Positions 44,701-64,000 of a DNA stretch of 64,000 bases are shown here, piece by piece; within the stretch, counting starts at the first letter, position 1; every line of letters begins with the position of its first letter. Under the pieces are notes generated by a model that saw nothing but the letters and a program-made list of their open reading frames with translations, was not told the origin of the DNA and did no database searches. Origin of the DNA: Amycolatopsis sp. WAC 01376 (GTDB lineage: Bacteria > Actinomycetota > Actinomycetes > Mycobacteriales > Pseudonocardiaceae); NCBI RefSeq assembly GCF_003947415.1, contig NZ_QHKL01000001.1, positions 744,001 to 808,000 of the forward strand. Direction: 5' to 3'. The position numbers and the translations under genes were made by a program.

Positions 44701-47700
44701 GCGCGAATCGGTGGTCGACGTCAGCTGTCCGCCGTCGTCGTAGGTGTAGGTCGATCTCCCCGCGTCCGGATCGGACTGCCAGACCTTGCGGCCGCGCAAG
44801 TCGTAGCCGGTCGACCAGACGTTGCCCGCCGCGTCGGCCATCGACGTCATGGCACCCGCGGCGTTGTACGTGTAGTTCGTGACGTCGGCCGGATTGGCCG
44901 CTCCCGGCGTGTACCCGTCGGTGTAGAGGAGCCGCTGGACGGTCTGCCCGTGCACGTCGGTCACCACGGTCTGCGGCGACGCGCCCCGCGGCGGAATGGT
45001 CGTGACCCGGTCGCCGCCATAGATGGTCGACGTCTGCCACTGCTTGACGCCCTTGGACATCAGGATCGACGCCGTCGCACGGGCCCGGCTGTCGTACTCC
45101 GTCACGGTCTGGTTCAGCACCGTGTTGTCCGCGACGGTCACCAGGTTCGCGACGGGCCCGGAAGCGTTGTTGAAGTACCCGTTGTTCGACTTGAACGGGA
45201 GTCCGCGCGAGTCGTAGACGGTGTCGCTGATGATCCGCCCGCCGCCGGACGCCGCGGACTGCGCCTGCCGCGTCCGCCCGAGACCGTCGTAGATCGCGTA
45301 CGACGTCGTGTACTCGCCGTTGTCCTGCAAGGCTTTCGTCGCCACCGTGGTGGGGACGGCGGTCGGTGACGTCGCCGCGTCGGTGTAGGCGAAGGTCGCC
45401 GTCGCCTTGTCGCCATCGAGCTTGCTGCGCCCTGGATTCCAGACCGCGGTCTTGCGCCCCAGAGCGTCGTAGGTGATGTCCGTGCGGACCTTGTTCACGT
45501 CGACCGAGAACACCGGGTTCCCCCGCGCCGGTTCCTTGGTGGTCGTCGAGACCCAGCCGAGGGGGTTCGTCACGGCGATTTCGGTGACCTGTCCTCCGGC
45601 GCTGTGCGTGTACGCGGTCTTCGTCACCGCGCCTGACACGTCGGTCGACAACGTCTCACGGCCATAGGCGTCGTACTCGTTCGTCGCGGTCGTCACGAAC
45701 TTCTTTCCCGCGGCGTCCCAAGCGCTCAGCGTGTCCGTGCGCGTGATGTCGCCCGCCGTCGGCGCGACGCCGGAGGCCTGCTTGTCATAAGAGACCTTGA
45801 CGTTGGTGATGACCGTGGACGCCGTAGCCGTACCCGAACAAACCCCGGCGAACATCACGACTTCACTCGACTTGTCGAACATCCCCGTAGCGGCGTTCGG
45901 GACATAGGTCGTCTTGGTGCACGTGTCGTCCGTGGCGACGCCGGTGTCGCCGAGGTCCTCCTGCTCGATGACGAGACCGTTGTCGTTGAACTTCTTGTTC
46001 ACCTGGTTGCGGCGATAGGTCTTGCCGTCGGACAGCAGGGTGCGTCCTCGCACGGTCGCGGTGTCCACCGAATGCGCCTTGAGCAGGCCGTCCGCGCTCG
46101 TCGCCGTCGGACCACGTACCCAGGGGTCGTTGATGGCGGAGTTGTCCACCGTCGTCGTGCCGGGAAGGTAGGTCCTGGACTCCCGGAGGAACCCTTGCAA
46201 GGGATCCTGATCGACGATCGTTCCCTTTTCGGAGTCCTCGACGGAGACCGTGCGTTTGCCGCCGTTCGGCAGGTGGTCGCCGTCCATCCCGCGCAGGTAC
46301 AACGACTCCGTCACCGTCTGGGTGGCGGACGGCTGGCCGATGGACGTCCGCACCACGCCGTAGCCACGCCATTGGCTCCAGGTCTTCCGCTCCTTTGGCG
46401 TGAACTGACCTTCGTCGTAGTGCCAGGCGGCGTCGCCGAGGTAGTCGTAATGCGTTTTGACCGCGACGCCACCGGCCGTCAGGTCTTCTTCGGAAATGTC
46501 CGTGACGACGTACTTGTGGAACCAGTCGAGGACCGGGTCCTTCGCCGCCGGCGGACTCCAGAACGACGCGTAGCACCGCATCGTGTCGGTCTCGGGTGAC
46601 GCGGGCATGCGTGTCCCCGCGACGCAATCAGGGCCGGAGTAGGCGACACCGATCCGCCCGCCGGTCTCGGTCCTGATCTCGTTGACCCGGTAGCGGGTGA
46701 TCGGGGAGTACTTGTCGGCGACCGTGTCGACCCGGTTCGCGAACATGAATCCGCCGAACGTCGTGGCGGGGCGGGTGATGCTTCCGACGCCGCCCTTCCC
46801 GGTGTGGGTGACCGAGGAGAGCCACAGCGCGGACGGCGAGGCGTCTCCGGTGCCGGGGAACGTGTGTGCCAGGTTCCAGACGTCGACATCGGTCTGCGTG
46901 CCCGCGTTGTTGTACTGGGTCCGGACCGTGGTCAGCCGTTTGCGGGTGAAGAACGCCGGTGACCCGTAGTCGCAGGGTTTGTCCTTCGCGCAGATCTGTT
47001 CGAACGGGACGTCCGGCCAAGAGGCGGCGGTCGTCGCATTCAGCTGCTCGGGAGCACAGGTGACCGCTCCCGACGGGAGGCAGCGCTCCGCGGTTTCGAA
47101 GACGACCTGGTTCGTGGGCGCGGAACCGTAGACACTGCCGTCCTTCAGGCGCAGGCCGTACTCGATCCGCAGGGGGTATCCGCCCGCGGTGTACTCGGTT
47201 CCGTTCGTCGTGACGTTCTGGTTGAGCCCGTAGTAGTTCGTCTCCGGCTGGTAGTAGTACGTGCTGGCGTTCCCGTGCGGATCCACCACGTAGTCCAGGT
47301 TCCAGCGCCAGGGCTGCCGGCAGGACGAGCCTGCGAAGTTGTTCGGCTTGTAGCAGGCTTCGCCGTCGTTGTTGCCGAACACCGGGACCGTCCAGGTGGA
47401 CTGGGTCTCGGGTTTGCCGGAAGACCAGCCCGGTGGGCGGTTGAGCCCCAGGAAGTACTGGGTTCCGTCGCCGGTGGTGACCTTCCAGTGCTGGCCGTCC
47501 TGGGCGTTGTTGGCGGCACCGCCGAGCAGTTCGATCTTGGAACCGTCGTCGTTCTTCGGCCGCCACTGATTCGTCCCGGCGAGTTTGATCAGGTCCGTCG
47601 ACTTGCCGCCGAGGACGAGGGTCGCGTTGTCGATCCCCCAGCACTGGTCACCGGTCTTGGTCTGCCCGTTGTTGCCGCCGAGGTCCTCGCTGCACGGCAG

Positions 47701-48669
47701 GTAGTTACGGACCACGTAACCGCCCGGCGTGAAGTCCCATCCGTCGCCGACCCAGGACGCCTGGTTGTTGGTCGCGGAAGTCAGGCCGTCGACACCGCTG
47801 GACGAGTACGAAAGCGCGAGGCTCGGCACCGCGCCACTCGGAGCGGACGGGGCCGGGAACGGATAGTTGTAGGAGAAGCTCCCGGAAGACCCGCCGCTGG
47901 ACCAGGACCCGGCCGCGGACAACGGCTGGGCGGACACGTTCCCGGCGGAGCCGCTCGCGGCCGCCGTCACCGCGAAGACCCGGGGCGCGGCACCGGCGAG
48001 AGCGACATCGGCCGAGACTTGCCGCGTCTTGCCGTTGTTCACCGTCCCGGCAACCGGGGTCTTCGTCCGGCACTCGGCCTTCGCCGGTGTCACCAGCGCG
48101 CATCCCGGCAGCTCCACCAGTTGCAACCGATCGGCCCAGCCACCGCCATAGGCGCTCCCGAACGCCCGGTAGTCCACCGCGACGTTCACCGGCTCGGCGC
48201 CAACGCCCGTGTCGGTCACGGAGAGCACCACACCGTGGAGTCCGAGTGCCTCACTGGCCTTCTGGTCCGCGACACGAACGCGGACCTTCGGCGCCTTTTT
48301 GGCGGCGGCGGTGTCCTTCGCCCGCGCCCAGCCGACCTTCACCGGAGTGCCGTTCGCGGCGTTCTGGGCGCCGAGCCCCTGCGGCTGACGGCCGGCGAGC
48401 ACTTCGACCTCGGATTCCGCCGCTCCCGGCCAGACCGGCGGAGTCACCTTCGCGTCGGCCAACACCGGCGGCGGCGACGGCGGGGCGACAAGCGGTGTCA
48501 CCGGGACGCTCTGGTCCTTCTGGCCCGGACCGAGCGACCAGCCCGGCGCGTTCGCCTTGTTTTCGAGTGCGATCGCCGCGCCACCGGACGCGAGCATGAT
48601 CGCGGTCACGGCCAACGCGGTGACGCGGGAAAACCGGCCGATGCGGGTCCAGCGGGTGTCTCTACGCAT
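41782..48669 (-). CDS. RHS-repeat polymorphic toxin with HINT domain and C-terminal toxin tip
   Basis: A 2295-residue secreted polymorphic toxin. After a signal peptide (ALAVTAIMLASGGAAIALE) comes a SpvB/TcdB-like N-terminal part (SYNYPFPAPSAPSGAVPSL ... SSSGVDGL). Dozens of YD repeats follow (such as YTYDDGGQLTSTTDSRGKAT), then the RHS core ending REYDPALGRFTKTDPVLDP. Next is a HINT domain (residues ~2039-2183, bases 42121-42555) with start CNSFVPGTQV, block-B TDWH and terminal HNC, which should autocleave. The last 112 residues (41785-42120) are the toxin: EQNPKHGSTSRGS, STEPSNGQAALDNSV, TSPRRIGMSDGQ and EYFHGHVRTD resemble, from memory, polymorphic toxin type 24. The tip is lower in GC than the rest. 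Confidence 0.92.
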   Translation of the reverse strand: MRRDTRWTRIGRFSRVTALAVTAIMLASGGAAIALENKANAPGWSLGPGQKDQSVPVTPLVAPPSPPPVLADAKVTPPVWPGAAESEVEVLAGRQPQGLGAQNAANGTPVKVGWARAKDTAAAKKAPKVRVRVADQKASEALGLHGVVLSVTDTGVGAEPVNVAVDYRAFGSAYGGGWADRLQLVELPGCALVTPAKAECRTKTPVAGTVNNGKTRQVSADVALAGAAPRVFAVTAAASGSAGNVSAQPLSAAGSWSSGGSSGSFSYNYPFPAPSAPSGAVPSLALSYSSSGVDGLTSATNNQASWVGDGWDFTPGGYVVRNYLPCSEDLGGNNGQTKTGDQCWGIDNATLVLGGKSTDLIKLAGTNQWRPKNDDGSKIELLGGAANNAQDGQHWKVTTGDGTQYFLGLNRPPGWSSGKPETQSTWTVPVFGNNDGEACYKPNNFAGSSCRQPWRWNLDYVVDPHGNASTYYYQPETNYYGLNQNVTTNGTEYTAGGYPLRIEYGLRLKDGSVYGSAPTNQVVFETAERCLPSGAVTCAPEQLNATTAASWPDVPFEQICAKDKPCDYGSPAFFTRKRLTTVRTQYNNAGTQTDVDVWNLAHTFPGTGDASPSALWLSSVTHTGKGGVGSITRPATTFGGFMFANRVDTVADKYSPITRYRVNEIRTETGGRIGVAYSGPDCVAGTRMPASPETDTMRCYASFWSPPAAKDPVLDWFHKYVVTDISEEDLTAGGVAVKTHYDYLGDAAWHYDEGQFTPKERKTWSQWRGYGVVRTSIGQPSATQTVTESLYLRGMDGDHLPNGGKRTVSVEDSEKGTIVDQDPLQGFLRESRTYLPGTTTVDNSAINDPWVRGPTATSADGLLKAHSVDTATVRGRTLLSDGKTYRRNQVNKKFNDNGLVIEQEDLGDTGVATDDTCTKTTYVPNAATGMFDKSSEVVMFAGVCSGTATASTVITNVKVSYDKQASGVAPTAGDITRTDTLSAWDAAGKKFVTTATNEYDAYGRETLSTDVSGAVTKTAYTHSAGGQVTEIAVTNPLGWVSTTTKEPARGNPVFSVDVNKVRTDITYDALGRKTAVWNPGRSKLDGDKATATFAYTDAATSPTAVPTTVATKALQDNGEYTTSYAIYDGLGRTRQAQSAASGGGRIISDTVYDSRGLPFKSNNGYFNNASGPVANLVTVADNTVLNQTVTEYDSRARATASILMSKGVKQWQTSTIYGGDRVTTIPPRGASPQTVVTDVHGQTVQRLLYTDGYTPGAANPADVTNYTYNAAGAMTSMADAAGNVWSTGYDLRGRKVWQSDPDAGRSTYTYDDGGQLTSTTDSRGKATFYSYDKLGRKTQTTADSPTGTKLASWSYDTVPNGIGLPVSSTRWVGADAYVTRVAAYDKYGRPTKKAVDVPAVEKGLAGTYEFSTAYTATGAVASTVSPKAGNLPLEHVRHTYNELGLPSTTYAIDSSGTTTNLVSKTDYTSFNEMSRMQFDGEKSTANVGVTQTYDEVTRRPQTTTVNRATQVGSQLTNRTYGYDPAGNVTKISDTPSGAPADTQCFEYDYQRRLTEAWTPASADCATAKSASALGGAAPYWKSYSFDKTGNRTKEVDHKPTGDVTSTSTYPAAGPTAVKPHALQKVDTSGPNGTSTSGYTYDEAGSMLTRNVGGDTQTFSYDHEGRTAGVTAPTGESKYLYDADGNRLVTRAPTGTTLSIGDLELVVTTGTTGVSATRFYQHGGVQVAVRVGGSALKWMLGDLHGTNGLAITAGTLTPTQRYMDPFGNPRGPAPSTWPDKHGFVGGYQDATGLTHLGAREYDPALGRFTKTDPVLDPAVPQLWNPYAYANNSPVTMTDPSGMSACFHMGEDGLFCREGTEQADYCNAKSSKSCTVMASSPSSPQGKKYAAEQREKAKRGYNEKSYKEAQAVVKKSKWDVFIDAAGELIKSLIGWDDIMGCIEGSVGSCISTLLNFIPWGKILKVGEIVASFWKGARALATFGREVEKAQKVIADTERILSDAAMAANAVQVVVAVSEGDGVVGAAAAAMGGAAAASDSGCNSFVPGTQVLMADGTTKPIEEVRIGDEVQTTDPETGGLERRRVVGTIVHDDEDERTEITVESGGVSDTIVATDWHLFWVEEADDWVAIGDLVPGQHLHSPDGRSSVVTAVRQFTQVSPVHDLTIDGIHAFYVGGSGTSLLVHNCGLRIYEQNPKHGSTSRGSSKGVVSTEPSNGQAALDNSVQIKGTSPRRIGMSDGQTVILDRHGSQVPCDCGGGGTNEYFHGHVRTDVGRAPAMAKAAVALGKAVKRGLIDPRR

Positions 48670-48717: not shown

Positions 48718-51700
48718 TCAGGGGTGGTCGAGGATCATGTCCGCGGCGATCCGCTGCGCGTCCAGCACACCGGTGTAGACGCGAACTCCGCGGACATCGC
48801 CGTACCAGAAGTCGGATTTGAGGCCAGTCCACACACCCCGGCCGATGAACAAGCTCGCGATATCACTGTTGCCGCTCCAGCCGACGACACCGGTCTGGCA
48901 CACGGGCTGGAACTGCCTCTCGTCGGTCTCCGCGTAGAGGCACGCGACATCGGAAACCGCATCGTAGGTTCCGGTCAAGTGCGTCCAAGTGTTCTCGTCG
49001 ATGCTTTCCGACGTGACATCGACCGCCGGAGTCGGCTGCCCGGCGACGGCCGACGGTGAAGTCGTCAACCAACTCCACTTGCCGTGCCAATTGCCGGAGG
49101 CGTCTTTGGACGGCCTGTAACCCAAAAGGAAAGGCGAGAACTTCGGGTCGTTCAAGGCAACGGCGGCTCGAGTGGCGTCGTCTCCACCCACGCCGTTCGA
49201 AGGACTGCGTAGCTTGGCGTCTTGGACATCCTCCGGAGTCCACTTGTGCCTCACCCAAGCTTCCACCGTGAAACTCCGGTCGGCGCGAAGTGCGGGCGGA
49301 CGCGGACTCTCGATCTCCCCACTCCAGGACTTGTCGAACTTCGCGACGTTGACGCCGTTGTCGTTGACCATGGCCGCGCCACCCGAGACGACACCGGCCG
49401 CGCCGGTGACTCCATCAGTGGTGCCGCCGTCGAGCTGGTAGTTCGCCCGGAGCACAGCGGTGTTGGCGAGACCGGCGGTTTCGGCGGCGGGCAGCGCCCG
49501 ATCCCAGACCTGGACCTGGTCGATGCTGCCCTTGAAGTAGGGCGACGGCTGGCCTTGCCACCGCACCTGCCCGACGGAGAAGCCATTAGTCGCGGTCCAA
49601 GTGGTCCCTGCGGGAATGGCCGTCTGCCCTTCGAGAACACCGTTCACATAGATCAGCACTTTGGCCGTGGAAGAGTCATAGACGCCGGTCAAATGTGTCC
49701 AGACACCCACCTGCGGGATGCTGGTGGAGGACGCCCACCGATACCTGTCCCCATCGTCGTCGGCGGCCGAAAGCCCCATGATCCACCGGTTCACGTCCGG
49801 GGAGTAGCGCAACTGGAAAGCGCTGGAGCGGATGCCATCTTGTCCGGCCACGACGTAGTAACCGTTGGCATCGGCCAGCTTCACCCACGCCGAAACGGTG
49901 AAGTTCTGCGCGGTGTCGATCACCGGTGTTTTCGTCTGCCCGTATCCGGGTCCGTCGCTGACGAAAGCCTGTCCGGACGACTGTCCGACCTTGCTCTCCG
50001 TGGCGGATTGCCCGGCGGAGTCGCTGTAGCCGGTCGCGAACCCCGAGCCGGGAGCGAAGGTGAGCGCACCGTCGTTTCCGGTCACGTCCACCGTGCTGCT
50101 CTCGAACGCGTACTCACGGATAGCCGACAGACCCGTCGGGACGCCGTTGTTCCCGTGCAACGAAGCGACTTCCGCTGTGGTCAGCGCCCGGTCGAGGATC
50201 GCGACCTCGTCGAGCTTCCCGGAATACAGGTAGGTCCGTACGCCCCCGGACTTCCCGCCCCCCACGACCAGCGGTCCCGCTCCACCGGCGCCGGTGGCAC
50301 CGACAGTGGCCTGTGGTTGTCCATTGACGTAGAGCGTCGCCGTTTTCGCCGTAGCGTCGTAGACGCCCGTCAGGTGTGTCCACACCCCTTCCACCGAAGG
50401 GGCCGCGGAAAAGGCGGAACTCTGCGCCGAGTCGGCGATACTGAACGCCCATTTCCCGGATTCGTGATACTGCAAGGCGAAACCGCTGCCTTGCGCGCCG
50501 TCCTGCGACAGCACGACCCGCCTGCTGTTCAGCCCGGCCGGGTTTACCCAAGCGGAAACCGAGAAAGACTTCGTCGTGTCCACCACTCGCGCACCGGTCG
50601 CGAAGTAGTCGCCCGCCTGGCCCGACAGAACCGCGCCCTCCGCGATCTTCCCCTCGGCGAACGTTCCCTTGCCTTCACCGACATACCGCAGACCGGTCGC
50701 TTGAGAAGCGCCGTTTCCTTCGAACTGCCATGAGGCGAGAGGAGCTGTCACGTCCCGGACGCTGAAGTTGTAGTCGACCCTGGTCGACGGTGTCTTCGCC
50801 CGGTTGCACGACCAGACACTCAGGACGTGCGTCCCCTTCGTCTGCGGGGCGATCGCGACGGTCGCGGGCCCGCTGTACGCGGCGGGTTTCACGGTTCCGG
50901 GCTCGGTCCCGTTGCAGGTGGGCGGCGCGGTGTTGTCCAGCTTCCACACGTAGCTTCCGACCGAGGTCGGAGTGTTGGCCACCGCGAAGGTGAAGTCACC
51001 TGCCCGGCCGGGGCCACCTCCGAAGGTGCCACTCGGATACGTCTGGGACGACACCGATGGCGCGGCGGGAGCGGACAACTGCACCTCGACCTCACACTGG
51101 GCCGCCCAACTGGTTTCGCGGCCATCGGTGACATGAGCGTCGAAGGAGTAGAGCCCGTCCGCGTTCATCGATGCGGTGGACAGAGTGGCCTGAGCATTGC
51201 GATTGGCGACGTTCGAGTCGCTCAAGACATTGTCGACACCTGCCTCACGGCCGTCCCACGCGTAGTTCCCGGTGCTGACCCAGCCCTTGTAGACACGGAA
51301 CCCGGTGTAAAGCATGCCGCCGTCCGGGTCCTGGACGTTCGCCTTGACCACGTAGCCCGTGCTGGTGCGACCGAGCACCGGACGAGTCCATGGCTTGCCC
51401 GGCGCGGGCGGGCCACACGGAAACGTCGAAGTCCCGTTGACGATGGCGAGGTTGGCCGGCGCGTTCGGACGCGAGTTGTAGGTGACCGAGAACCCGACCT
51501 GGGTGGAGTACCTCTTCCAGGTTTTCTGGTCGTTCTCGTTGGGCGAGACGATGCCGAAGGTGAAGGTCGGCCCGCCGACGTCCACCAGGCTCCGGATGGT
51601 CGGGAGGATGTCGAACCCGACGTTGGTCGGGCAGCCCCTCACCTCTCCGAGCCAGTTGCCCAGTGCCGGGCCGCTCCCGAACTTCAACCCTGGAACAATC

Positions 51701-52905
51701 GGATTGGTCAGCACCACGTTGTTGGAGGCGCTGCAGTCATTCGGGTTGGTCACCGCCAGGTTGAGTTGCGCGCTGTAGATCAGCTTCCCGGCCAGGCCAC
51801 CGAGGTTCATTTCCACGAAGGAGCGCGCGGTGACGAGGTTTCCCGCGCAGCTCGAGTTGGAGTCGTAGACGTACCCGGCCTTGAGCTGGTCGCCCGAGTC
51901 CCATGCCGCCTCGCCCGGCGTCTTCGAAGCACCGCAGGCGTGCTGGACCAGGTAGTGGTTGCGACCGCAGTTGGCGCAGTAGTTCGTCTGCCAGGTGGGG
52001 TCGACGTAAACCGGGTACGCGGCGTTCGCCAGCAGGTCGGCGTCGGGGGTGAGGAGCAGCGCCTTACCCGAGATCTCGGTCGCGACCTTGGCCTGGCGCC
52101 CGCCCGCCGCGGGACCGCGGACGAAATCCACCGAGCCGGGTTCGACGCCCGACGAATCCCACATCAAGGGCGCCTTGGCCAGGAAGACGTCGGCCCCCTT
52201 GGTGTCCTTGACCCGCAGAGCGCCGTCGGCGTCCTTCGTGACCTGGCCGTTCTTCACCGGGAGGCCGAGCTTGATCTTCGCGATGGCCGGGTTCTTCGCC
52301 GCCTCCGGCGTCTTGATCACGACGACCTCGTGGACCTTGTCCACGTCCACCTCGACCTTGAGGTCGATCCCGGGAAGGACCTCGGGGTAGGTGGCCGTGG
52401 CACCCGAAACCACCGGTCGAGGAAGCGCGCCCGGCCAATCGAGACCCACCGAAGTGCCGTTGGCGCTCAACTGCACCAGAGGCGAGCCCCCCGCGGTCTG
52501 GACATCGCCTCGCCGTCCGGCGGACAGCGAGATGTCGGCCATCGCGGCCTTCGGCGACAGTGCCCCGTTCGGGTCGGGGCTCAGCGTCGAGTCCGCGGGC
52601 ACCCAGTCACCGTCACGAGGGACCCGGACCGGACGGGTGTTCTGCGTCCGCGTCAGGGAGCCGTCCGGGTTGGCGACGGTCTCCGACCGCTCGGAGGTCA
52701 GGTCGTCGATCCGGACCTTCTTCCGGCCCTCCTTGGCGAACTTCGTCGCGGACGCGGTGTCGGGAGCGGAATTCGGTACCGCCGACGGCGCTGGGGAAGC
52801 GGCTTCCACCGGAAATGCGAAAGCCGTGGCCGGGAGCACCCCGAAAGCCACGGCCAACACGACGACGACGACACCGAGACGCGATCTCAGGCACGACGAT
52901 CTCAC
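48718..52905 (-). CDS. Large secreted LamG-domain protein upstream of the RHS toxin
   Basis: A 1395-residue secreted protein with a signal peptide (VVVVVLAVAFGVLPATAFA). Its N-terminal part (~60-700) has the segments seen in actinobacterial RHS partners, including repeated Cys-containing stretches (TNYCANCGRNHYLVQHACGA). Three concanavalin-A/LamG-like domains follow (about 740-940, 955-1165, 1170-1390), each with WTHLTGVYD or WTHLTGTYD and an ending such as LDEVAILDRALTTAEVASL. LamG folds bind glycans or proteins, so it may target or anchor the toxin. The GTG at 52905 has GAGGGGGA upstream. It ends 48 bp before the RHS start. Confidence 0.88.
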   Translation of the reverse strand: MRSSCLRSRLGVVVVVLAVAFGVLPATAFAFPVEAASPAPSAVPNSAPDTASATKFAKEGRKKVRIDDLTSERSETVANPDGSLTRTQNTRPVRVPRDGDWVPADSTLSPDPNGALSPKAAMADISLSAGRRGDVQTAGGSPLVQLSANGTSVGLDWPGALPRPVVSGATATYPEVLPGIDLKVEVDVDKVHEVVVIKTPEAAKNPAIAKIKLGLPVKNGQVTKDADGALRVKDTKGADVFLAKAPLMWDSSGVEPGSVDFVRGPAAGGRQAKVATEISGKALLLTPDADLLANAAYPVYVDPTWQTNYCANCGRNHYLVQHACGASKTPGEAAWDSGDQLKAGYVYDSNSSCAGNLVTARSFVEMNLGGLAGKLIYSAQLNLAVTNPNDCSASNNVVLTNPIVPGLKFGSGPALGNWLGEVRGCPTNVGFDILPTIRSLVDVGGPTFTFGIVSPNENDQKTWKRYSTQVGFSVTYNSRPNAPANLAIVNGTSTFPCGPPAPGKPWTRPVLGRTSTGYVVKANVQDPDGGMLYTGFRVYKGWVSTGNYAWDGREAGVDNVLSDSNVANRNAQATLSTASMNADGLYSFDAHVTDGRETSWAAQCEVEVQLSAPAAPSVSSQTYPSGTFGGGPGRAGDFTFAVANTPTSVGSYVWKLDNTAPPTCNGTEPGTVKPAAYSGPATVAIAPQTKGTHVLSVWSCNRAKTPSTRVDYNFSVRDVTAPLASWQFEGNGASQATGLRYVGEGKGTFAEGKIAEGAVLSGQAGDYFATGARVVDTTKSFSVSAWVNPAGLNSRRVVLSQDGAQGSGFALQYHESGKWAFSIADSAQSSAFSAAPSVEGVWTHLTGVYDATAKTATLYVNGQPQATVGATGAGGAGPLVVGGGKSGGVRTYLYSGKLDEVAILDRALTTAEVASLHGNNGVPTGLSAIREYAFESSTVDVTGNDGALTFAPGSGFATGYSDSAGQSATESKVGQSSGQAFVSDGPGYGQTKTPVIDTAQNFTVSAWVKLADANGYYVVAGQDGIRSSAFQLRYSPDVNRWIMGLSAADDDGDRYRWASSTSIPQVGVWTHLTGVYDSSTAKVLIYVNGVLEGQTAIPAGTTWTATNGFSVGQVRWQGQPSPYFKGSIDQVQVWDRALPAAETAGLANTAVLRANYQLDGGTTDGVTGAAGVVSGGAAMVNDNGVNVAKFDKSWSGEIESPRPPALRADRSFTVEAWVRHKWTPEDVQDAKLRSPSNGVGGDDATRAAVALNDPKFSPFLLGYRPSKDASGNWHGKWSWLTTSPSAVAGQPTPAVDVTSESIDENTWTHLTGTYDAVSDVACLYAETDERQFQPVCQTGVVGWSGNSDIASLFIGRGVWTGLKSDFWYGDVRGVRVYTGVLDAQRIAADMILDHP

Positions 52906-53032: not shown

Positions 53033-53434
53033 TCAGATCTCGTAGCCGTCCAGCACGGTCGGCGCGACCGGGGACAGGTGCTCGTCGCCGCGTTCGGTGA
53101 CCAGGCCCCGGGCCATCCGGTACACCTTGAATTCGTTGTCATTCTCGGGATCTTGGTCGTCCCAGACGTGCAGGAGGCCGTAGGAGCCGGGGGCGAGGTC
53201 GCCGACGCGGGTGAACAGGTCCACCAGCTCGGGCGCGATCGCCGTGCCGTGCTTGTCCATCCCGCCCAGGTGCAGCACCGGCACCCCGGCGGCCCAGCGC
53301 AGGTCGAGCAGATCGGCGTCGCCGAAGTCGCGGACGGCGCGGTGCACCCGCTCGACGATCCGCTCGAGCAGCGCCGCGTCGTCGTCACCGGAAGGGCTCG
53401 CTTGGATGGTCACCCACCCGTGGTATTCGAACAC
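53033..53434 (-). CDS. Imm7-like immunity protein
   Basis: A 133-residue protein starting VFEYHGWVTIQAS, which I associate with immunity protein family 7, and containing LDLRWAAGVPVLHLGGMDKH and YGLLHVWDDQDPENDNEFKV. The preferred start is GTG 53434, where the conserved FEYHGW begins; the longer open frame upstream is a shadow. It has no adjacent matching toxin tip, so it would be an orphan immunity gene protecting against toxins of other strains. It lies upstream of the LamG-RHS locus on the same strand. Confidence 0.7.
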   Translation of the reverse strand: MFEYHGWVTIQASPSGDDDAALLERIVERVHRAVRDFGDADLLDLRWAAGVPVLHLGGMDKHGTAIAPELVDLFTRVGDLAPGSYGLLHVWDDQDPENDNEFKVYRMARGLVTERGDEHLSPVAPTVLDGYEI

Positions 53435-53472: not shown

Positions 53473-54012
53473 TCAGCCCGCCATCGCGGCCGGTGTCCCG
53501 TTGCGCCGGAGCTCGTTCTTGAAGACGCGTTCGCCGTGCTTCTCGAAGGCGGGCACCAGCTTCTCGCCGTAGACGCACAAGGTCCGTTCCCACGGATGCC
53601 CGAGCGTGCCGAAGCGGAAGTCGTTCGCCAGGAAGAGGTGGTAGTCGGTGCGCGGGAACACCGGGACCGGCCACGGGTCGAGCGCGGCGTGCCGATGCGG
53701 GTAGAAGCGGTACGACTGGTGCTGCCAGTGCAGCACCCATACCCACTCGTCCTCGGCGACGCAGTCCTTCAGCGCCGAGAGGGCGACACGGGCGACGTCG
53801 TTCTGCTCGACGGCGTACGGGCCCAGCCGGAATTCGGCCGACGAGCGGTCGAGTCCCCCTGGCGCGAGATCCCACGCGACGGAGGGAGCGGGTTCACGGA
53901 AACCGGGCCAGGCGTGCGCGTAGGTGCTCGGCCAGAACGCGAGCTTGTCGTAGACCCAGTACCAGGCGGGCTCATCTGCGACCCTGGAGATGGCTTCCCA
54001 AGCGTTGTTCAC
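53473..54012 (-). CDS. DUF2716-like protein (putative immunity)
   Basis: A 179-residue soluble, Trp- and Tyr-rich protein: WYWVYDKLAFWPSTYAHAW near the N-terminus and HPWERTLCVYGEKLVPAFEK near the C-terminus resemble DUF2716. Families of this type often behave as orphan immunity genes within polymorphic-toxin loci, and it precedes an Imm7-like gene by 38 bp. Enzyme motifs are not evident. The start ATG is at 54012. The function is inferred only from the neighbourhood. Confidence 0.65.
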   Translation of the reverse strand: MNNAWEAISRVADEPAWYWVYDKLAFWPSTYAHAWPGFREPAPSVAWDLAPGGLDRSSAEFRLGPYAVEQNDVARVALSALKDCVAEDEWVWVLHWQHQSYRFYPHRHAALDPWPVPVFPRTDYHLFLANDFRFGTLGHPWERTLCVYGEKLVPAFEKHGERVFKNELRRNGTPAAMAG

Positions 54013-57268: not shown

Positions 57269-58414
57269 ATGAGCTGGCAAGACGAGCTTCGACAGCTGGA
57301 CGTCGAGCTGGCCGCGGGTCGCGTCGGGCACGCCGAACACCGCCGTAAGCGTGACGAGCTCCTGGCAGAGGCCTCCGGCGGGACGATGCCGTCCCCGGTC
57401 CCCTCGCCACTACGACGTCCGGGCGGGGCGTGGCACAGCACCAATCCCGCCGCACGGCCGGTCGAGCCGCCCGCCACCGTCCAGCAGCAGCAGCCGTTCC
57501 AACAGCAGCAGCCGTTCCAACAGACCCAGCCGGTGTACACGCCCGTCGAGCAGCCGGAGAAGAAGGCGGGCATCCCGCGGATCGCGGACCACAAGACCAC
57601 CGCGCCCTCGCCCGCCGACATCAATCCGACGGTCTACCTGCGTGCCACCCCGCCGCCCGCCAGGAACCAGCCGTCGACTCGCGAGCTGAACCGGCCGCTT
57701 CCGCCGCTGGCGCCCGAGCCCGGCCCACGCCATCAGGCGCCGGCCGAGGATTACGCGGTGGTCGGCAAACGCAAGCCGACGTGGCTGTTCATCGGCGCCG
57801 GGGTGCTGGTGGTGCTGGCGTTGATCATCGGCGGAACGCTGTGGCTGGGCTCGTCCCAGCCCTCGAACGTCGCCGAGCAGCCGCCGGCGCAGAGCGTGGC
57901 CCAGCCGCCGAACGGTCTCGCGCCGTCGGGTCAGCCCGACAGTGCCCAGACGCCGTTGGAGGATCGGCTCCCCGCGCTGCCGGGGACACCGTCGAAGGAC
58001 AACTCGACGATGTCGGTCGCGAAGGGTGTCGAGCTCAGCCTCTATTCGAAGGCCGCGGGCGACTACCTCGCTTCGAAGAACGTCGCTTCCGTCACCTACA
58101 AGGGTTCGAACGAGGGCACGAACAGTTACCTCGTCCTGGTGATCCCGGCGAACGACGCGAAGGACGCGGCTTCGATCGTGAAGTACTTCCGGGAGAACTC
58201 GATCGACGCGGGACTGCGCGAGCAGCGCGTCGGCGATCGGCTCGCCCTCGTCGGCGCGAACCAGAACGGTCAGCTCAGCGGCATCGGTTACGTCTCCGGG
58301 ACGATGGCCGTCACGACGTGGGTCTCGCAGCCGCTCGGCGGCGACCCGCAGGCGCTCGACACCCGTCTGGAGCAGACGCTGACCTCGTTGGACACCGTTC
58401 TCCCGGCGGGCTGA
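57269..58414 (+). CDS. Gln/Pro-rich single-pass membrane protein with SHOCT-like N-terminus (paralogue 1)
   Basis: A 381-residue protein. Residues 1-35 (SWQDELRQLDVELAAGRVGH, then EHRRKRDELL) form a short helical hairpin like a SHOCT motif. A Gln/Pro-rich cytoplasmic region follows, with the direct repeat QQQQPFQQQQPFQQ (~70-90), then one transmembrane helix (~171-195). The extracytoplasmic C-terminal domain (~240-381: VAKGVELSLYSKAAGDYLAS ... TTWVSQPLGGDPQALD) is unfamiliar. AGGGGG precedes ATG 57269. It is paralogous to the next gene and may help organise the envelope enzymes encoded downstream. Confidence 0.75.
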   Translation: MSWQDELRQLDVELAAGRVGHAEHRRKRDELLAEASGGTMPSPVPSPLRRPGGAWHSTNPAARPVEPPATVQQQQPFQQQQPFQQTQPVYTPVEQPEKKAGIPRIADHKTTAPSPADINPTVYLRATPPPARNQPSTRELNRPLPPLAPEPGPRHQAPAEDYAVVGKRKPTWLFIGAGVLVVLALIIGGTLWLGSSQPSNVAEQPPAQSVAQPPNGLAPSGQPDSAQTPLEDRLPALPGTPSKDNSTMSVAKGVELSLYSKAAGDYLASKNVASVTYKGSNEGTNSYLVLVIPANDAKDAASIVKYFRENSIDAGLREQRVGDRLALVGANQNGQLSGIGYVSGTMAVTTWVSQPLGGDPQALDTRLEQTLTSLDTVLPAG

Positions 58415-58560
58415 GAAACGCAGGTCGCGGGGAGATCACGATTCGACCCGCGGGGGCGCGGCCAGTCCGGGCAGTGCAGAATGTGCGAGGTCACCGCAGT
58501 GGTGGTATCGCGACGGCCGGGAGCGTTCCTCCCGGCGGGAATCGGATAAGGGGGCCGGTG

Positions 58561-59889
58561 GTGTCCTGGCAGGAAGAGCTGCGCAATCTGGACGAAGAGC
58601 TCGCATCTGGACGGCTCTCCGCCGATGATTACCGGCTCCGCCGTGACCAGGTGCTGTCCTCGGCGGTCGCGTACGGCGACCCCGCGCAGCAGCAGGTCCA
58701 GCAGCCCGGCCAACAGCCGCAGCAGCCGTTCCAGCAGCCGCCCGCGCCGCCTCAGCAGCAGGCGCCGCAGCAGACCGGTCAGCCCAGCGCCGACTCGACG
58801 CAGATCATCGCGCCGGTGAACCAGCCGCAGCAGAACGGCGGCGAAGGCGAGCGCACCCAGGTCGTCCCGAACTGGCAGCAACAGCAGTCCGATCCGAACC
58901 GCACCCAGGTCGTGCCGCCGGTGGCGTCACCGCCGGGCGGTTTCCCCCAGCAGGGCCAGCAGGCGTCCCCGGCCGGTGGCTTCCCGCAGCAGGGTCATGC
59001 CTCGCCCGCGGGCGGTTTCCCGCAGCAGCAACAACAGCCGCAGCACGGTTACCAGCAGCCGCAGCAGCAGGGCTGGACCGACAACGACGCCAGCCCGCCG
59101 TGGGGTGGTTCGGACTTCCCGCCGATCTCGCCGGTCGGCAGCACGGAGTGGGTCAAGCAGGGCCCGGAGCTGTTCGAAGACAAGCCCAAGGGCAAGGGCG
59201 GCAAGATCGCGATCATCGCGATCGTCGCCGTCCTGGTTCTCGCCGGTCTGGGTGTCGGCGGTTACTTCGCCTTCTCCGGTGGCGGTGACACCCCGCCGGA
59301 TCCGACGGCCGCGCCGCAGTCGTCCCAGCCGCAGCCCGCCCCGCCGTCGTCGACCAAGCCGAAGACGCCCGAAGAGCTGCTGTTCGAGAAGATCCCGGAG
59401 CAGTCCGGTGAAGAGGACCCGAAGAGCGGCGCGATCCCCGTTGCCCAGCTCGCCGAGCTCGCCGGCTTGGAGAAGGCCGAGGCGGATCTGGTGATCGCCG
59501 CCGGGGTCAAGCAGGTCGCGTACCGGGGCTCGCAGAAGCAGCCGGACGAGACCGGGCCGCAGCCGGCGAAGATCTCGGTCACGGTCATCCCGCTGACCAG
59601 CCCCGGTGCCGCCGGTGACCTGGTCAAGCAGCTGCGCCAGTACCAGACGACCAACGGATTCGTGCAGATCACCGAGCCGCTGCCGGGGATGCCGCCGAAG
59701 CTGAACTTCCAGAAGAAGATCGACGGCGACAAGGGTTCCTACCGCGGCACCTGGATCAGCGGCAACAACATCGTCCGCGTCGACATCCTGCAGAACCCGC
59801 TCGGCGGGGAAGAGGGCGAGAAGGCGTTGAGCGGCACGTACCAGCGTGCGGTGAAGAAGACGCTGGAAAACTACGCCGTCACCAGCTGA
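58561..59889 (+). CDS. Gln/Pro-rich single-pass membrane protein with SHOCT-like N-terminus (paralogue 2)
   Basis: A 442-residue protein with the same plan as its upstream paralogue. The N-terminus is SWQEELRNLDEELASGRLSA with DDYRLRRDQVL, then a ~170-residue Gln/Pro/Gly-rich region with repeats of PAGGFPQQ, one transmembrane helix (KIAIIAIVAVLVLAGLGVGG, ~217-236), and an extracytoplasmic domain (~290-442). I chose GTG 58561 over the adjacent GTG 58558 because GGGGG is then at correct spacing. The methyltransferase gene starts 3 bp after its stop, so the two are surely co-transcribed. Confidence 0.78.
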   Translation: MSWQEELRNLDEELASGRLSADDYRLRRDQVLSSAVAYGDPAQQQVQQPGQQPQQPFQQPPAPPQQQAPQQTGQPSADSTQIIAPVNQPQQNGGEGERTQVVPNWQQQQSDPNRTQVVPPVASPPGGFPQQGQQASPAGGFPQQGHASPAGGFPQQQQQPQHGYQQPQQQGWTDNDASPPWGGSDFPPISPVGSTEWVKQGPELFEDKPKGKGGKIAIIAIVAVLVLAGLGVGGYFAFSGGGDTPPDPTAAPQSSQPQPAPPSSTKPKTPEELLFEKIPEQSGEEDPKSGAIPVAQLAELAGLEKAEADLVIAAGVKQVAYRGSQKQPDETGPQPAKISVTVIPLTSPGAAGDLVKQLRQYQTTNGFVQITEPLPGMPPKLNFQKKIDGDKGSYRGTWISGNNIVRVDILQNPLGGEEGEKALSGTYQRAVKKTLENYAVTS

Positions 59890-59892
59890 GAA

Positions 59893-61236
59893 ATGACCGC
59901 CGAGACGGCACGGCTGCTCACCACCCTGCTTTCCCTGGCCGAGGACACCGGTTCGTTGTCCGACGAGCTGCACTTCGCCGGCCGGGACGCCGCCGAGCGT
60001 GCTCCGCTCGACCACGGTGCCGCGAACGTCCTCCGGGCGCTCGTGGTGCCGAAGGCGGCGAGGGTGCTGGAGGTCGGTGCCGGTTTCGGTGGTCTGACGC
60101 GGTATTTGGGTGAGGTCTCGGAGACGGTGCACGCCGTCGAGGCCGACCCGGTCCGCGCGGCCGCGGTGCGGTTCCGCACCCGTGACCTCACCACCGTGAC
60201 GGTGCACGATCGGCCGCCCGCCGACGGCTACGACCTCGTCGTCGTCCAGCAGCCGTACGCGACGCGAAGCCTGCTGGACTCGGTTCGCGAACGGCTGTCG
60301 CCGCTGGGCGCCGTCGTGGTGCTGACGGCTTCGCGCGGTGTCGCCAAGACGCTGGCGGCGGCAGGCCTCGAAGTCCAGCGTGAGCTGCTCTGTTCCCCCG
60401 GTCACGAGGTCGCCCGCGCCGTGCGCGGCACGCAGATCGACACCGAACTACCCCGGCTGTCCGCGGCGATCGCCGGTGGTCCCGCCAACGGACTCGCCCT
60501 GCTCTGCGGTCCCGGCGCCGCCGCGCTCTGGCCCCCGTACCGGCTCGCGACCTACTTCAACACCTCCGAACGCGCCGCGTTCGCCTGCACGCGCGCCGAC
60601 GTCGTGCGCACCGGGGACGGTGCCGAGGTCCGCCGCACGCCGCTGGTCCCGTCGCCGCCGGTGGCCGGGATCTCGGTCGGACCGTGCGCGGACAACGTGT
60701 ACGACGCCCCGACGATGGTCGAAGTCCTGTTCGACGAGCCGGAACGGGTCGCGGAGCTGCTCACCGGCTGGCGGGATCTCGTCCGCGCGGAGGCCTCGCG
60801 CGGGGTCGAGGCGTTGTGGGATCTGGTGCCGCACAACGTCCTTGTCGACGGCGAGACGCTGCGCCCGATCGACCTCGAGTGGCGGAACGAAGGCGCCGGC
60901 GTGCCCGAGGTGATCGAACGCGGAGTGCTCGTGCTGGCCGACAAACTCGCCGACGCGGGCTGGCCCGGGGCGGCGGAGGGCGGGTCGATGCGCGACCTGG
61001 CGGGCTGGCTCGGTGTGCTGATCGGGCTCCATCCCTCCTTTGTGGACAGTGCGGTGGCGCGTGAGGTCGCCTTCTCGACGATCGCCTCGTGCGGCACCGC
61101 GCACGGCACGGACGAGGTGCGGGTGGCGATCGACGGGATTTGGCGAACGCGCCTGGCGAGAACCGTCCACGAGTACCGTTCACCCAAGGTCGGCGCCGGT
61201 GTGGCGGCGAACGAAGACGAGGTAGCGAAGCGATGA
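59893..61236 (+). CDS. SAM-dependent methyltransferase fused to a kinase-like domain
   Basis: A 447-residue protein. The N-terminal class I methyltransferase has motif I VLEVGAGFGGLTRYL (residues 58-72) and motif II HAVEADPVR. The C-terminal part (~210-430) carries an aminoglycoside-phosphotransferase-like signature: Asp310 and Asn315 in WDLVPHNVLVDG (D-x4-N) and Asp327 in PIDLEW, matching the catalytic Asp, Asn and metal-binding Asp of that fold. WbdD of E. coli O9a joins a methyltransferase and kinase to cap a growing O-polysaccharide; this protein has the same two activities in the same order. The gene sits 3 bp after paralogue 2 and overlaps the GT4 start as ATGA. Confidence 0.78.
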   Translation: MTAETARLLTTLLSLAEDTGSLSDELHFAGRDAAERAPLDHGAANVLRALVVPKAARVLEVGAGFGGLTRYLGEVSETVHAVEADPVRAAAVRFRTRDLTTVTVHDRPPADGYDLVVVQQPYATRSLLDSVRERLSPLGAVVVLTASRGVAKTLAAAGLEVQRELLCSPGHEVARAVRGTQIDTELPRLSAAIAGGPANGLALLCGPGAAALWPPYRLATYFNTSERAAFACTRADVVRTGDGAEVRRTPLVPSPPVAGISVGPCADNVYDAPTMVEVLFDEPERVAELLTGWRDLVRAEASRGVEALWDLVPHNVLVDGETLRPIDLEWRNEGAGVPEVIERGVLVLADKLADAGWPGAAEGGSMRDLAGWLGVLIGLHPSFVDSAVAREVAFSTIASCGTAHGTDEVRVAIDGIWRTRLARTVHEYRSPKVGAGVAANEDEVAKR

Positions 61237-63134
61237 CGAGCCTGCATACCGCCGGCATCCTGACCCCGGCCCTGCCGGTCGGGCACATGTTCGAGCTCCG
61301 GGGCTGGACGACCGGCATCAGCCGGATCGGTGAGATGTCCGTGACCATCGCGGACGTCGAGGCGAACCTGTTCCCCGAGCCGTGCCCGGGCGCGCCCGAA
61401 GGCACCTTCGGCTGGCGCGCGGTCCCGGGTTCCTGGGTTCCGGCGGGCACGCAGGACATCGTCGTCACCGGTCCGGACGAGCGTGTGCTGAACCAGGCGA
61501 CCGTCCACGTCGGAACGTTGCCGGGCGAAGAACCGCTGTGGCTGGGCGAACTCGAAGCGCCGAAGCAGGGCAAGGTCAGCGAAGGACACGTCGTCTACGT
61601 GACGGGGTGGGCGTTGCTACAGGGCCGCGCGCCGAGCCTGATCGAGGTCATGGTCGAGGGCGGCGGCACGGTCAGCGCGCGCACCCGCCTGCCGCGCAAG
61701 GACGTCCCCAAGGAATTCCCCGGATTCGACGACGCCGCGGTGAGCGGCTTCGAGGCCTGGGTGCCTGTCGATCTCCCGTACGGCGAAGAGCGGACGCTGT
61801 CGCTTCGCGTCCGGTACCGCACCGAAGGCGTCGGCGAGGTCGTGTCGGCGAAGCGCACTTTCACGCTTCGCAACCCCGTCGCGGACTTGGACGACGCCGA
61901 ACTCGCCGACGAGCTGGCCGGGGATACCGCCCGCGCGATGGCGCGCGTGAATATCCCGACCGACCCGAAGCATGTGCTGGTGTTCACGCACAGCCTCGGC
62001 GTCGGCGGCGGGCAGCTGTGGCTGCAGGAACTGCTGAGCCGGATAGTGACCGATCACGGCTGGCAGGTCAGCCTGGTGAGTGAAACCGACGGCCCGCTGC
62101 GCGCGGACTGCCACGAACTCGGCATCCCCGTGCACGTCACGACGCACTACCGGAACCAGACGGTGCCCGCCTACGAAGGCCACGTCGCCGAGCTGGCGCG
62201 CTTCGCGAAGTGCTCTGGAGCGGGCGTCGCGCTCGTCAACACTCTCGGCGGCTTCGTCGGTGCGGACGCGGCGAAGCGCGCCGGGATGCCGACAGCGTGG
62301 GTCATCCACGAAAGCTTCTCGCTGCCCGCGTTCGCCTACCAGAACTGGGGCCCGGTGAAACCGCCCGCCGCGGTGTGGCGACGCTGGGAAAGCACCCTCG
62401 CCGAGGTCGACAGGCTGCTGTTCGTCGCGGACGCGACGCGCGAGATGTTCCTCCCGTACAGCAAGCCGGAGCGGTGCCGGACGGTCCGCTACGGCACGCC
62501 GATGCACAAGTTCGGCGGCCGGACACGGTCGGAGACGCGGCGGCAGGCGCGCAACATGCTCGGCTACTCGCCCGACGACATCGTGCTGGTCAACATCGGC
62601 ATCGCGGAAGCCCGCAAGGGGCAGGCGCCGCTGATCTCGGCGATGGAGCGGATCCACAAGGTCCACCCCGAGGCGAAGCTGTCGATCGTCGGCCTCCACC
62701 CCTCGCCGTACGGGCTGGCGATGGAGGAGTCCGTCGAGCGCGCCGGGCTGGAGGAATCGGTCAGCCTCGTGCCGATCCAGCCGGATCCGCTGCGCTGGCT
62801 CCAGGCCGCGGACATCTTCGTGAACAGCTCCGACATCGAGTCACTGCCGCGGTCGATCCTCGAAGCCGTCTGCTGTGGCGTCCCCGTCGCGGCGACCGAC
62901 GTGTTCGGCGCGCGGGAGATGATCGTCGACGGCGAGACCGGCTGGCTGTTCGAGACCAACGACGTCGACGCGCTGACGGCGGCGCTGCTGCGCGCGCTCG
63001 GCACGTCGGCCACGCGCCGCCGTGAGATGGCGAAGGCCGCGCACGAGAAACTGCTGCCGTGGCTCGACCCGGCGGGCTACGCGCGCGAGTACTCCGAAAT
63101 CCTGACCGAACTGAGTGGGGGCGTTCATGTCTGA
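61233..63134 (+). CDS. GT4 glycosyltransferase with N-terminal beta-sandwich domains
   Basis: A 633-residue protein. Residues 1-215 look like two beta-sandwich/Ig-like domains (GWTTGISRIGEMSVTIADVE; VVYVTGWALLQGRAPSLIEV). A GT-B glycosyltransferase of family 4 follows: GVGGGQLWLQELLSRI at the N-lobe, VNIGIAEARKGQAPLISAME, and the nucleotide-sugar site FVNSSDIESLPRSILEAVCC with GVPVAATDVFGAREMI. The donor and acceptor are unknown, but the added domains suggest direct recognition of a polymer. ATG 61233 overlaps the methyltransferase stop (ATGA), and the stop overlaps the next gene by 8 bases. The operon is tightly coupled. Confidence 0.87.
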   Translation: MTSLHTAGILTPALPVGHMFELRGWTTGISRIGEMSVTIADVEANLFPEPCPGAPEGTFGWRAVPGSWVPAGTQDIVVTGPDERVLNQATVHVGTLPGEEPLWLGELEAPKQGKVSEGHVVYVTGWALLQGRAPSLIEVMVEGGGTVSARTRLPRKDVPKEFPGFDDAAVSGFEAWVPVDLPYGEERTLSLRVRYRTEGVGEVVSAKRTFTLRNPVADLDDAELADELAGDTARAMARVNIPTDPKHVLVFTHSLGVGGGQLWLQELLSRIVTDHGWQVSLVSETDGPLRADCHELGIPVHVTTHYRNQTVPAYEGHVAELARFAKCSGAGVALVNTLGGFVGADAAKRAGMPTAWVIHESFSLPAFAYQNWGPVKPPAAVWRRWESTLAEVDRLLFVADATREMFLPYSKPERCRTVRYGTPMHKFGGRTRSETRRQARNMLGYSPDDIVLVNIGIAEARKGQAPLISAMERIHKVHPEAKLSIVGLHPSPYGLAMEESVERAGLEESVSLVPIQPDPLRWLQAADIFVNSSDIESLPRSILEAVCCGVPVAATDVFGAREMIVDGETGWLFETNDVDALTAALLRALGTSATRRREMAKAAHEKLLPWLDPAGYAREYSEILTELSGGVHV

Positions 63135-63666
63135 CACCGACATTCCCGGCCGTGTCCAGGCCGAGCTGACCCGGCTCCGTGCCGAGCGGCAGGTCTTCAC
63201 CGCCGAGCAGGACCGGCTGAAGGCGAAGCTGGCCGACACCGAACACGAGTTGCGTGAGGCCATCGCCGCCTCGCCGGACGAAGGCGAGTCCGCCGAGGTG
63301 CACCAGAGGCTGGCCACACAGCAGGAAGAACTCGATGTCGCGAAGGCGCGTTCGCAGGCGCTGGAGGCCGAGGTCCTGCTCGCCCACCAGCAGCGTGACT
63401 CGCTGCGCGCGGAGCTGAAGACCTGCCGCGAGGAGCGGGACAAGCTGCGGCTCGCGCTGCTCGACGCCGAACTCGTGGTGTCGGCGGGCGTCGTCGACGC
63501 GGACGTCCTGCCCGGTGGCGAGCCGTCGGCCGACCGGCAGCGGCTGCTCAACGCCGAACGTCTCGCCGCCGAGATGGCCAGGGAACTCGACGCCACGCGC
63601 CGCACCGTCAGCTGGCGGGTCACCGCGCCGCTGCGGGTCGTGCGGAAGAAGATGGACCGGTCGTGA
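63127..63666 (+). CDS. Coiled-coil protein in the glycan operon
   Basis: A 179-residue protein that is almost entirely a coiled coil. Heptad-patterned segments such as AELTRLRAERQVFTAEQDRL, HQRLATQQEELDVAKARSQA and LRAELKTCREERDKLRLALL run to ~residue 130. The C-terminus (LDATRRTVSWRVTAPLRVVR) matches a tail often seen on glycosyltransferase-associated coiled coils. It could scaffold or space the glycosyltransferase and methyltransferase-kinase. The ATG at 63127 overlaps the GT4 gene by 8 bases, and its stop overlaps the next gene as GTGA. Confidence 0.78.
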   Translation: MSDTDIPGRVQAELTRLRAERQVFTAEQDRLKAKLADTEHELREAIAASPDEGESAEVHQRLATQQEELDVAKARSQALEAEVLLAHQQRDSLRAELKTCREERDKLRLALLDAELVVSAGVVDADVLPGGEPSADRQRLLNAERLAAEMARELDATRRTVSWRVTAPLRVVRKKMDRS

Positions 63667-64000
63667 CCGAACTCTGCTTCGTCTCCGCCGAGGGCGGTTC
63701 CGCCTTCATGGAGGAACTGCTGGAGGTGGTCGCCGACGCCGTGCGCACCGCGGGCGGCAAGGCCAGCACCGCGATCGGCAAGTTCCCCGACGCCGGGAAC
63801 GACACGGTGTACGTCGTCGTCCCCCACGAGTATTTCGTGACCGTCCCGGACGCCGAATTCCCGACCGCCGCGCAATGCCGCCGCACCATCGGATTCTGCG
63901 TGGAGCACCCAGGCACGGCAACCTTCGAACGCAACGCCGAACTGCTGTCGATCCTGGGCGGCGCCGTCGACATCAACACCGATTCGACCGCCGAACTGCG
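63663..64000 (+). CDS. Putative glycosyltransferase, N-terminal part (cut by window end)
   Basis: The first 112 codons of a gene running off the right edge. The start TELCFVSAEGGSAFMEELLE, an alternating beta-alpha pattern, and VYVVVPHEYFVTVP with RTIGFCVEHPGTATFE, look like the N-terminal Rossmann lobe of a GT-B-like glycosyltransferase. No catalytic region is available to confirm it. The GTG at 63663 overlaps the coiled-coil stop as GTGA, so it is part of the same operon. Confidence 0.5.
   Translation, partial: MTELCFVSAEGGSAFMEELLEVVADAVRTAGGKASTAIGKFPDAGNDTVYVVVPHEYFVTVPDAEFPTAAQCRRTIGFCVEHPGTATFERNAELLSILGGAVDINTDSTAEL

Follow-up and report, generated by a model that had tools for sequence, protein, structure and literature searches.

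A methyltransferase-kinase of the Klebsiella O7 ORF6 type beside a free coiled-coil gene in Amycolatopsis: a candidate split glycan chain terminator

The end of the window (the whole 64,000-nucleotide stretch analysed here, positions 744001-808000 of its contig, C11, in the 9.07 Mb genome of Amycolatopsis sp. WAC 01376) carries a closely packed cassette for a methyltransferase-kinase protein (MTK), a glycosyltransferase of family GT4, a small free coiled-coil protein (the coil protein) and a second, glycosyltransferase-like protein (c4), which together form a candidate system for ending glycan chains. Amycolatopsis is a genus known for antibiotics. The sequence-only reading of this DNA had pointed out overlapping genes for the GT4 and the free coil, and these stand: the MTK/GT4, GT4/coil and coil/c4 overlaps are 4, 8 and 4 bases, the GT4 match in Pfam is clear, and the coil passes a heptad-coverage test (below). 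Two c0 genes, paralogues of each other, precede the cassette. The features, by window position, are:

57269-58414, plus strand: c0a, 381 aa, Gln/Pro-rich, one membrane-spanning stretch (by eye); marker gene of the locus
58558-59889, plus strand: c0b, 443 aa, paralogue of c0a; its stop lies 3 bases upstream of MTK
59893-61236, plus strand: MTK, the predicted chain terminator, 447 aa, ATG start
59893-60447, plus strand: methyltransferase domain of MTK, residues 1-185; G62, G64 and E83 kept, O7-type pocket tyrosines lost
60475-61167, plus strand: kinase-like domain of MTK, residues 195-425, O7 ORF6 type, with D310 (codon 60820-60822), N315, D327, E329 and W330
61233-63134, plus strand: GT4 glycosyltransferase, predicted polymerase component, 633 aa; PF00534 at residues 440-604 (E 2.5e-28)
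61233-61952, plus strand: N-terminal beta-sandwich-like region of the GT4 protein, about residues 1-240 (fold named by eye)
63127-63666, plus strand: free coiled-coil protein, predicted ruler or scaffold subunit, 179 aa
63148-63480, plus strand: coiled-coil part of that protein, residues 8-118, interrupted near residues 48-55
63610-63636, plus strand: SWRVTAPLR motif, near the C-terminal end of the coil protein
63663-64000, plus strand: start of c4, glycosyltransferase-like (PF13524, E 4.8e-9); the whole protein, 589 aa, runs past the window end (L004:7663-9432)

In Pfam, MTK drew methyltransferase matches below threshold and nothing in its kinase half, and the coil protein drew generic coiled-coil matches, also below threshold, and nothing more. 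The tandem c0 membrane proteins (57269-59889), which mark the locus under any cassette, have no Pfam family above threshold. The nearest named relatives of the MTK protein belong to nine Amycolatopsis species.

The sequence-only reading had rightly recognised a methyltransferase and a kinase-like domain in one protein, with D310-x4-N315 and D327, and had likened it to WbdD, the chain terminator of E. coli O9a; as a statement of kinship, this likeness had to be given up. Plasmids searched by tblastn gave two proteins, one of 1457 aa from Pseudomonas asturiensis and one of 649 aa from Citrobacter braakii, each encoded directly after the permease and ATPase genes of an ABC transporter; a further match, in Nonomuraea, was shorter. 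The MTK kinase domain aligned with these two O7-type proteins at an hhalign probability of 97% (E 5e-11, 217 columns) and with the fused actinobacterial proteins described below at 98% (E 8e-14, 199 columns), against 1.3% (E 0.04, 33 columns, overlapping the motif) for the WbdD kinase of E. coli HS, a test weaker than profile against profile since WbdD was entered as a single sequence. Four control comparisons, with c4 and GT4, gave 0.2-0.8%. A sister split protein (L080) matched P. asturiensis directly (blastp E 1.5e-57, residues 23-500 of 533). The O7 ORF6 of Klebsiella pneumoniae, described by Kelly et al. 2024 (PMC11231755), was represented in our alignments by the P. asturiensis relative and not by its own sequence; that relative has Tyr28, Tyr66, Gly91, Gly93, Glu112 and Tyr158 at the ORF6 numbers, and its Asp443, to which D310 of the window protein aligns, lies two residues from the published Asp441 (PMC11231755). 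In addition, MTK residues 283-329 matched a RamC-like lanthionine synthetase (blastp E 7.9e-6, 51% over 47 aa) inside that protein's Pfam Pkinase domain (residues 256-382, E 3.5e-6, under Pfam's cut-off). Because of the profile comparison, joined by this independent kinase match, we regard MTK as related to the O7 type: judged by its sequence, the kinase domain belongs with Klebsiella O7 ORF6 and not with WbdD. Among the PDB chains listed for the single MTK sequence (five) and for the full profile (60 of 209) there were methyltransferases only, and E. coli genomes searched with the Citrobacter DNA for an O7-type gene gave no match. A Nonomuraea gerenzanensis protein (L119:9707-11353) has methyltransferase likeness, a kinase part lacking D-x4-N by eye and a coil-like C-terminus, also by eye, and lies beside a GT2 gene; it is perhaps a form that lost its kinase.

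D310, N315, D327, E329 and W330 are invariant in 50 of 50 actinobacterial sequences, 40 from split and 10 from fused loci, in a count that leaves aside L119 and another protein, L127, and in which all 10 fused proteins fitted the motif pattern. Over both MTK domains dN/dS in seven pairs was 0.15-0.45, and for GT4 it was 0.06-0.28.

The split set comprised 40 distinct genomes with MTK, all 40 loci of which were read, with genes in the relatives' stretches called by a custom codon-usage script, for which five window genes served as training set, in place of a standard gene finder. A protein search of the genus matched 30 of 80 genomes, 28 of them counted as having MTK genes, and one of a family sample matched 79 of 249, 23 of them counted as MTK (11 already in the genus set); the uncounted family matches were generic, mostly short methyltransferases, and one (G281, L132) was a lanthionine-synthetase kinase. 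At wider scope, the full MTK profile at E 1e-10 matched 84 genomes out of 296 in the class, in nearly every case through short methyltransferases, and the kinase profile matched two of 396 genomes of the phylum, the window's own included. A conserved gene order, for which the sequence-only reading had suggested a search, is directly observed: all 40 split loci have GT4, coil and c4 no more than 4 kb from MTK (c4 being cut by a contig or locus end in L007 and L014), with a c0 gene at most 15 bases upstream of MTK in each. The order MTK-GT4-coil-c4 on a single strand holds for 37, and in the other three (L072-L074) the GT4-coil-c4 block is on the opposite strand. The lowest identities to the window proteins across these loci are 35% for MTK, 49% for GT4, 39% for coil and 56% for c4. 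The gene set is therefore more than a chance grouping, given that all 40 loci have it, with MTK identities as low as 35%, and given the invariant residues and the dN/dS values. Additional methyltransferases occur. MTK exceeds 600 aa in 11 of the 40 loci (L065, L066, L075-L079, L083, L179-L181), and of these long proteins the two that were scanned, L065 and L076, each end in a second methyltransferase domain that scores better than the first, as if replacing an eroded one; in six loci a separate gene (cluster c21) lies between MTK and GT4, and the one scanned is a methyltransferase.

The heptad-coverage test gave values as high as the window coil in only 9 of 300 shuffles, and all 11 proteins submitted to it passed at no more than 15 of 300. 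Other measures were less favourable: a best-single-window score for L081 was equalled by 76 of 300 shuffles and is not significant, and a cruder, single-register Fourier test was failed by the window protein, whose value was reached in 613 of 2000 shuffles, and by three of the seven others reached. Near the C-terminus, all 40 coil proteins share T[VIL]SW[RK]VTAPLR. By eye this motif resembles the SRSWRMT that follows the coil of WbdD. The coil spans 99-116 residues in the 23 of 40 proteins measurable by pattern, the 17 proteins of the window MTK's own clade (the window clade) falling outside this measurement. The beta-sandwich part of the GT4 protein aligned with the corresponding domain of the fused proteins (hhalign 89.5%, E 2e-6, 89 columns), from a profile of 3 of 11 GT4 proteins, the others having been missed by the pattern.

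In sister genera of the Pseudonocardiaceae the same family appears in fused form, as a single protein of 1133-1229 aa with methyltransferase, D-x4-N...[IVL]DxEW kinase, coil, beta-sandwich and GT2 parts. There are 10 such loci, all with c0 matches:

L120-L126 and L129-L131: fused loci, c0 matches at 10 of 10

PF00535 (GT2) was present in all five of the c0-linked fused proteins scanned (L120, L121, L122, L124, L130), and the coil beat shuffles in each of the seven tested out of 10; L127 is built differently and its GT2 match is weak. These proteins resemble the window system in family, in the c0 gene at the locus and, in one genus, in chromosomal site, and differ from it in being one polypeptide, in using GT2 rather than GT4 and in the absence of a c4 match at their loci. 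A family search found nearly full-length relatives of the fused protein in 26 of 249 genomes and partial ones in 2, the other 5 matches being split-form genomes; in 80 genomes of Amycolatopsis a search for the fused form at E 1e-10 matched 15, of which 9 were split-form and the rest gave only frames of 245-363 aa. In a tree of 18 of the 40 split proteins, the 10 fused, 1 other and 2 outgroup sequences, split and fused forms made separate groups, each on one side of a branch with 100/100 support. Genus g21 has both, a fused gene (in G231) and a split cassette (in G290), at the same chromosomal site. The two genomes share 15 genes on either side of it, with identities of 56-94% to the left and 79-96% to the right, and many of these genes also flank the window cassette. 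We consider the split of terminator and coil well supported, because a fused methyltransferase-kinase-coil-beta-sandwich-GT2 protein exists in sister genera and occupies the same site in one of them. The separate subunit of the sequence-only reading thus holds at the level of genes, with the coil gene separate in 40 of 40 loci and a fused counterpart in sister genera; its role as a ruler is a prediction.

The site also accepts other cassettes. For the 52 Amycolatopsis genomes without MTK we sought the flank in 12 and read 10 sites, each with two c0 relatives. Three hold two GT4-type proteins and an AlgX-like protein, and six a methyltransferase-GT2-GT4 protein with an AlgX-like protein (domain scans covered two sites of the first kind and three of the second, the rest being joined to them by blastp at 74-100% identity); the tenth is taken up below. 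Acyl_transf_3 and AlgX-like neighbours recur around the locus. This is what a serotype-like glycan locus looks like, and its product would be a surface glycan.

Among described systems the nearest is K. pneumoniae O7 ORF6, a methyltransferase-kinase that places methyl-phosphate on the terminal rhamnose and loses kinase activity in the D441A mutant; its kinase weakly resembles AmiN, the protein also holds an Ig-like domain, a coiled coil and two GT2 modules, and the orthologues named are from alpha- and gammaproteobacteria and cyanobacteria (PMC11231755). The window system shares with it a methyltransferase followed by an atypical kinase, the aligned catalytic Asp and Asn, and a coil, an Ig-like domain and glycosyltransferases within the same machine. 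The O7 protein, however, is a single chain that includes both GT2 modules and works in an O-antigen pathway dependent on an ABC transporter, whereas here the coil and the beta-sandwich with GT4 are on separate proteins, the host is an actinobacterium and no adjacent ABC exporter was found. Since the coil is a separate gene in every split locus, we class the system as a variant of the O7 type and not a plain member; among the O-antigen systems of K. pneumoniae that Kelly et al. consider, the terminator is always at the distal end of its own coil (PMC11231755). The Lcin_0519 family of Legionella is alike in joining kinase and methyltransferase, in an alphaC that is not recognisable, in a common coil and in glycan-gene neighbours, a kinship that rests on description; it differs in that the taxa named in the section on the family are Proteobacteria and in its catalytic residues, described as typical, against mostly Arg at the Lys position here (PMC9758233). 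WbdD of E. coli O9a (E. coli HS copy at L114:17967-20093) provides the working model, in which kinase and methyltransferase end the chain and the coil measures it (PMC3482155), but its kinase is not detectably homologous, its coil is in the same polypeptide, and a carbohydrate-binding module (CBM) on the ABC transporter reads the cap. In the literature covered we found no actinobacterial methyltransferase-kinase terminator, although a 2019 Glycobiology survey of chain terminators (Mann et al.) lies outside that coverage and may describe some. The sequence-only reading had called the system undescribed, which is right in part: the kind of system has been described, as the O7 ORF6 type, and the novelty lies in the actinobacterial host and in the split.

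We think it rather probable that the cassette terminates glycan chains by phosphorylation, with the free coiled coil as ruler or scaffold. The locus would assemble a surface or cell-wall glycan at the cytoplasmic face of the membrane, GT4 and c4 lengthening the chain. MTK would stop extension by adding phosphate to the non-reducing end, and might also methylate that phosphate; the separate coil would keep the terminator at a fixed distance from the polymerase at the membrane, and capping would be limited to chains that are long enough. This scheme predicts that MTK is an active kinase, that it caps a glycan, that the coil binds it and that coil length sets chain length. In WbdD, phosphorylation alone suffices to terminate the chain (PMC3482155), and a phosphate-only cap is therefore possible for the window system. 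More tentatively, and as something we hold possible rather than probable, the cassette may represent a Gram-positive termination machine with a free, exchangeable ruler subunit, possibly a phosphate-only cap and no CBM-bearing Wzt; its locus in the Pseudonocardiaceae would be serotype-like, with conserved flanks between which the fused form, the split form and unrelated glycosyltransferase cassettes take each other's place. If termination by MTK is right, chain-length control by end-capping would extend to actinobacteria, and the locus points to a hypervariable glycan locus in Amycolatopsis; with a separate coil, moreover, the ruler model can be tested by swapping or shortening one small protein while both enzymes stay untouched.

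A number of results weigh against termination by phosphorylation, and there are three other explanations. By hhalign, the free and fused coils show no significant sequence likeness (15.5%), and the split and fused forms have unrelated glycosyltransferase modules. The kinase profile found, among PDB sequences at E up to 10, four weak chains (E 0.44-0.70), none significant and none WbdD; one, the Corramycin phosphotransferase, aligned at the DLxPxN...DxEx motif. AlphaFold models of MTK had a mean pLDDT of 36.6 from the single sequence and 42.1 from 10 close sequences, too poor in the kinase part. No recognisable alphaC segment appears in the MTK alignment, and Arg in place of the ATP-binding Lys and the eroded methyltransferase pocket of the window clade, both detailed below, count against termination as well. 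The usual cap-reading exporter is not evident, given that PF14524 (Wzt_C) had 0 matches in the genome at E 0.01, a search positive in 3 of 14 control genomes, and that none of the 23 ABC2_membrane matches is adjacent, the nearest being about 82 kb away on the contig. A true WbdD orthologue with its coiled coil split off would account for the like order of methyltransferase, kinase and coil, for a D-x4-N and downstream Asp that resemble D351/N356/D369 of WbdD (PMC3482155) and for the S-W-R-x-T after the coil in both, yet we give it hardly any credence in view of the hhalign contrast above and of the statement by Kelly et al. that the kinase domains of O7 ORF6 and WbdD differ in sequence and structure (PMC11231755).

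MTK might also be a pseudo-enzyme in the window clade, kept as a structural partner. The methyltransferase pocket is eroded there: all 17 proteins are without the positions of Y28 and Y158 and have Val, Ala or Thr for Y66 (Ala in the window MTK), with G62 (17 of 17), G64 (16 of 17) and E83 (17 of 17) retained; the N-lobe of the kinase is shortened; and the ATP-binding Lys, whose absence the sequence-only reading had named as telling against a kinase, is Arg247 in the window protein, as it is Arg in all 17 members of the clade, in 36 of 40 split and in 10 of 10 fused proteins. The Tyr residues are commoner elsewhere, with Tyr at each of Y28, Y66 and Y158 in 6 of 12 split proteins of 504-542 aa, and in 6, 8 and 5 of the 10 fused. 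However, five kinase catalytic-site residues are invariant in 50 sequences, a model of the Lcin_0519 kinase-methyltransferase family also lacks alphaC (PMC9758233), and both domains are under purifying selection, so that loss of the methyltransferase pocket is not simple decay. The Lys position is Arg in the P. asturiensis O7-type relative (Lys in C. braakii), and thus Arg247 does not mark the window MTK as dead; Arg for Lys has been proposed for the Legionella kinase Lani_1194 as well (PMC9758233). A pseudo-enzyme is accordingly improbable in our view. Less easily set aside, if still unlikely, is that MTK adds an internal decoration to the glycan, or has a lipid or protein as its substrate, the coil only scaffolding the glycosyltransferases. 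At the tenth alternative site (G070, L215:10699-17111), which also counts against termination, c0, GT4, a short coil protein (about 125 vs 179 aa) and c4 persist without MTK, and tblastn found no significant MTK remnant there (best E 0.023); the long MTKs and the c21 genes suggest varied decoration, and the missing CBM-bearing exporter subunit fits as well. Against internal decoration, the closest characterised relative type is a terminator (PMC11231755), and the coil protein of G070, some 50 residues shorter where MTK is absent, is what one would expect if coil length serves termination, though this is a single case.

Upstream, about 11 kb from the cassette, the window encodes on the minus strand (41782-48669) a 2295-aa RHS-repeat protein with a pretoxin Hint domain (PF05593, PF07591), polymorphic-toxin-like in character. 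An Imm7 immunity-like protein (53033-53434, minus strand, E 4e-53) and a DUF2716 protein (53473-54012, minus strand) lie beside the gene for a 1395-aa protein with three Laminin_G_3 stretches (48718-52905). Relatives of the Imm7-like protein, the DUF2716 protein or both adjoin some of the alternative cassettes (L209, L210, L211, L214).

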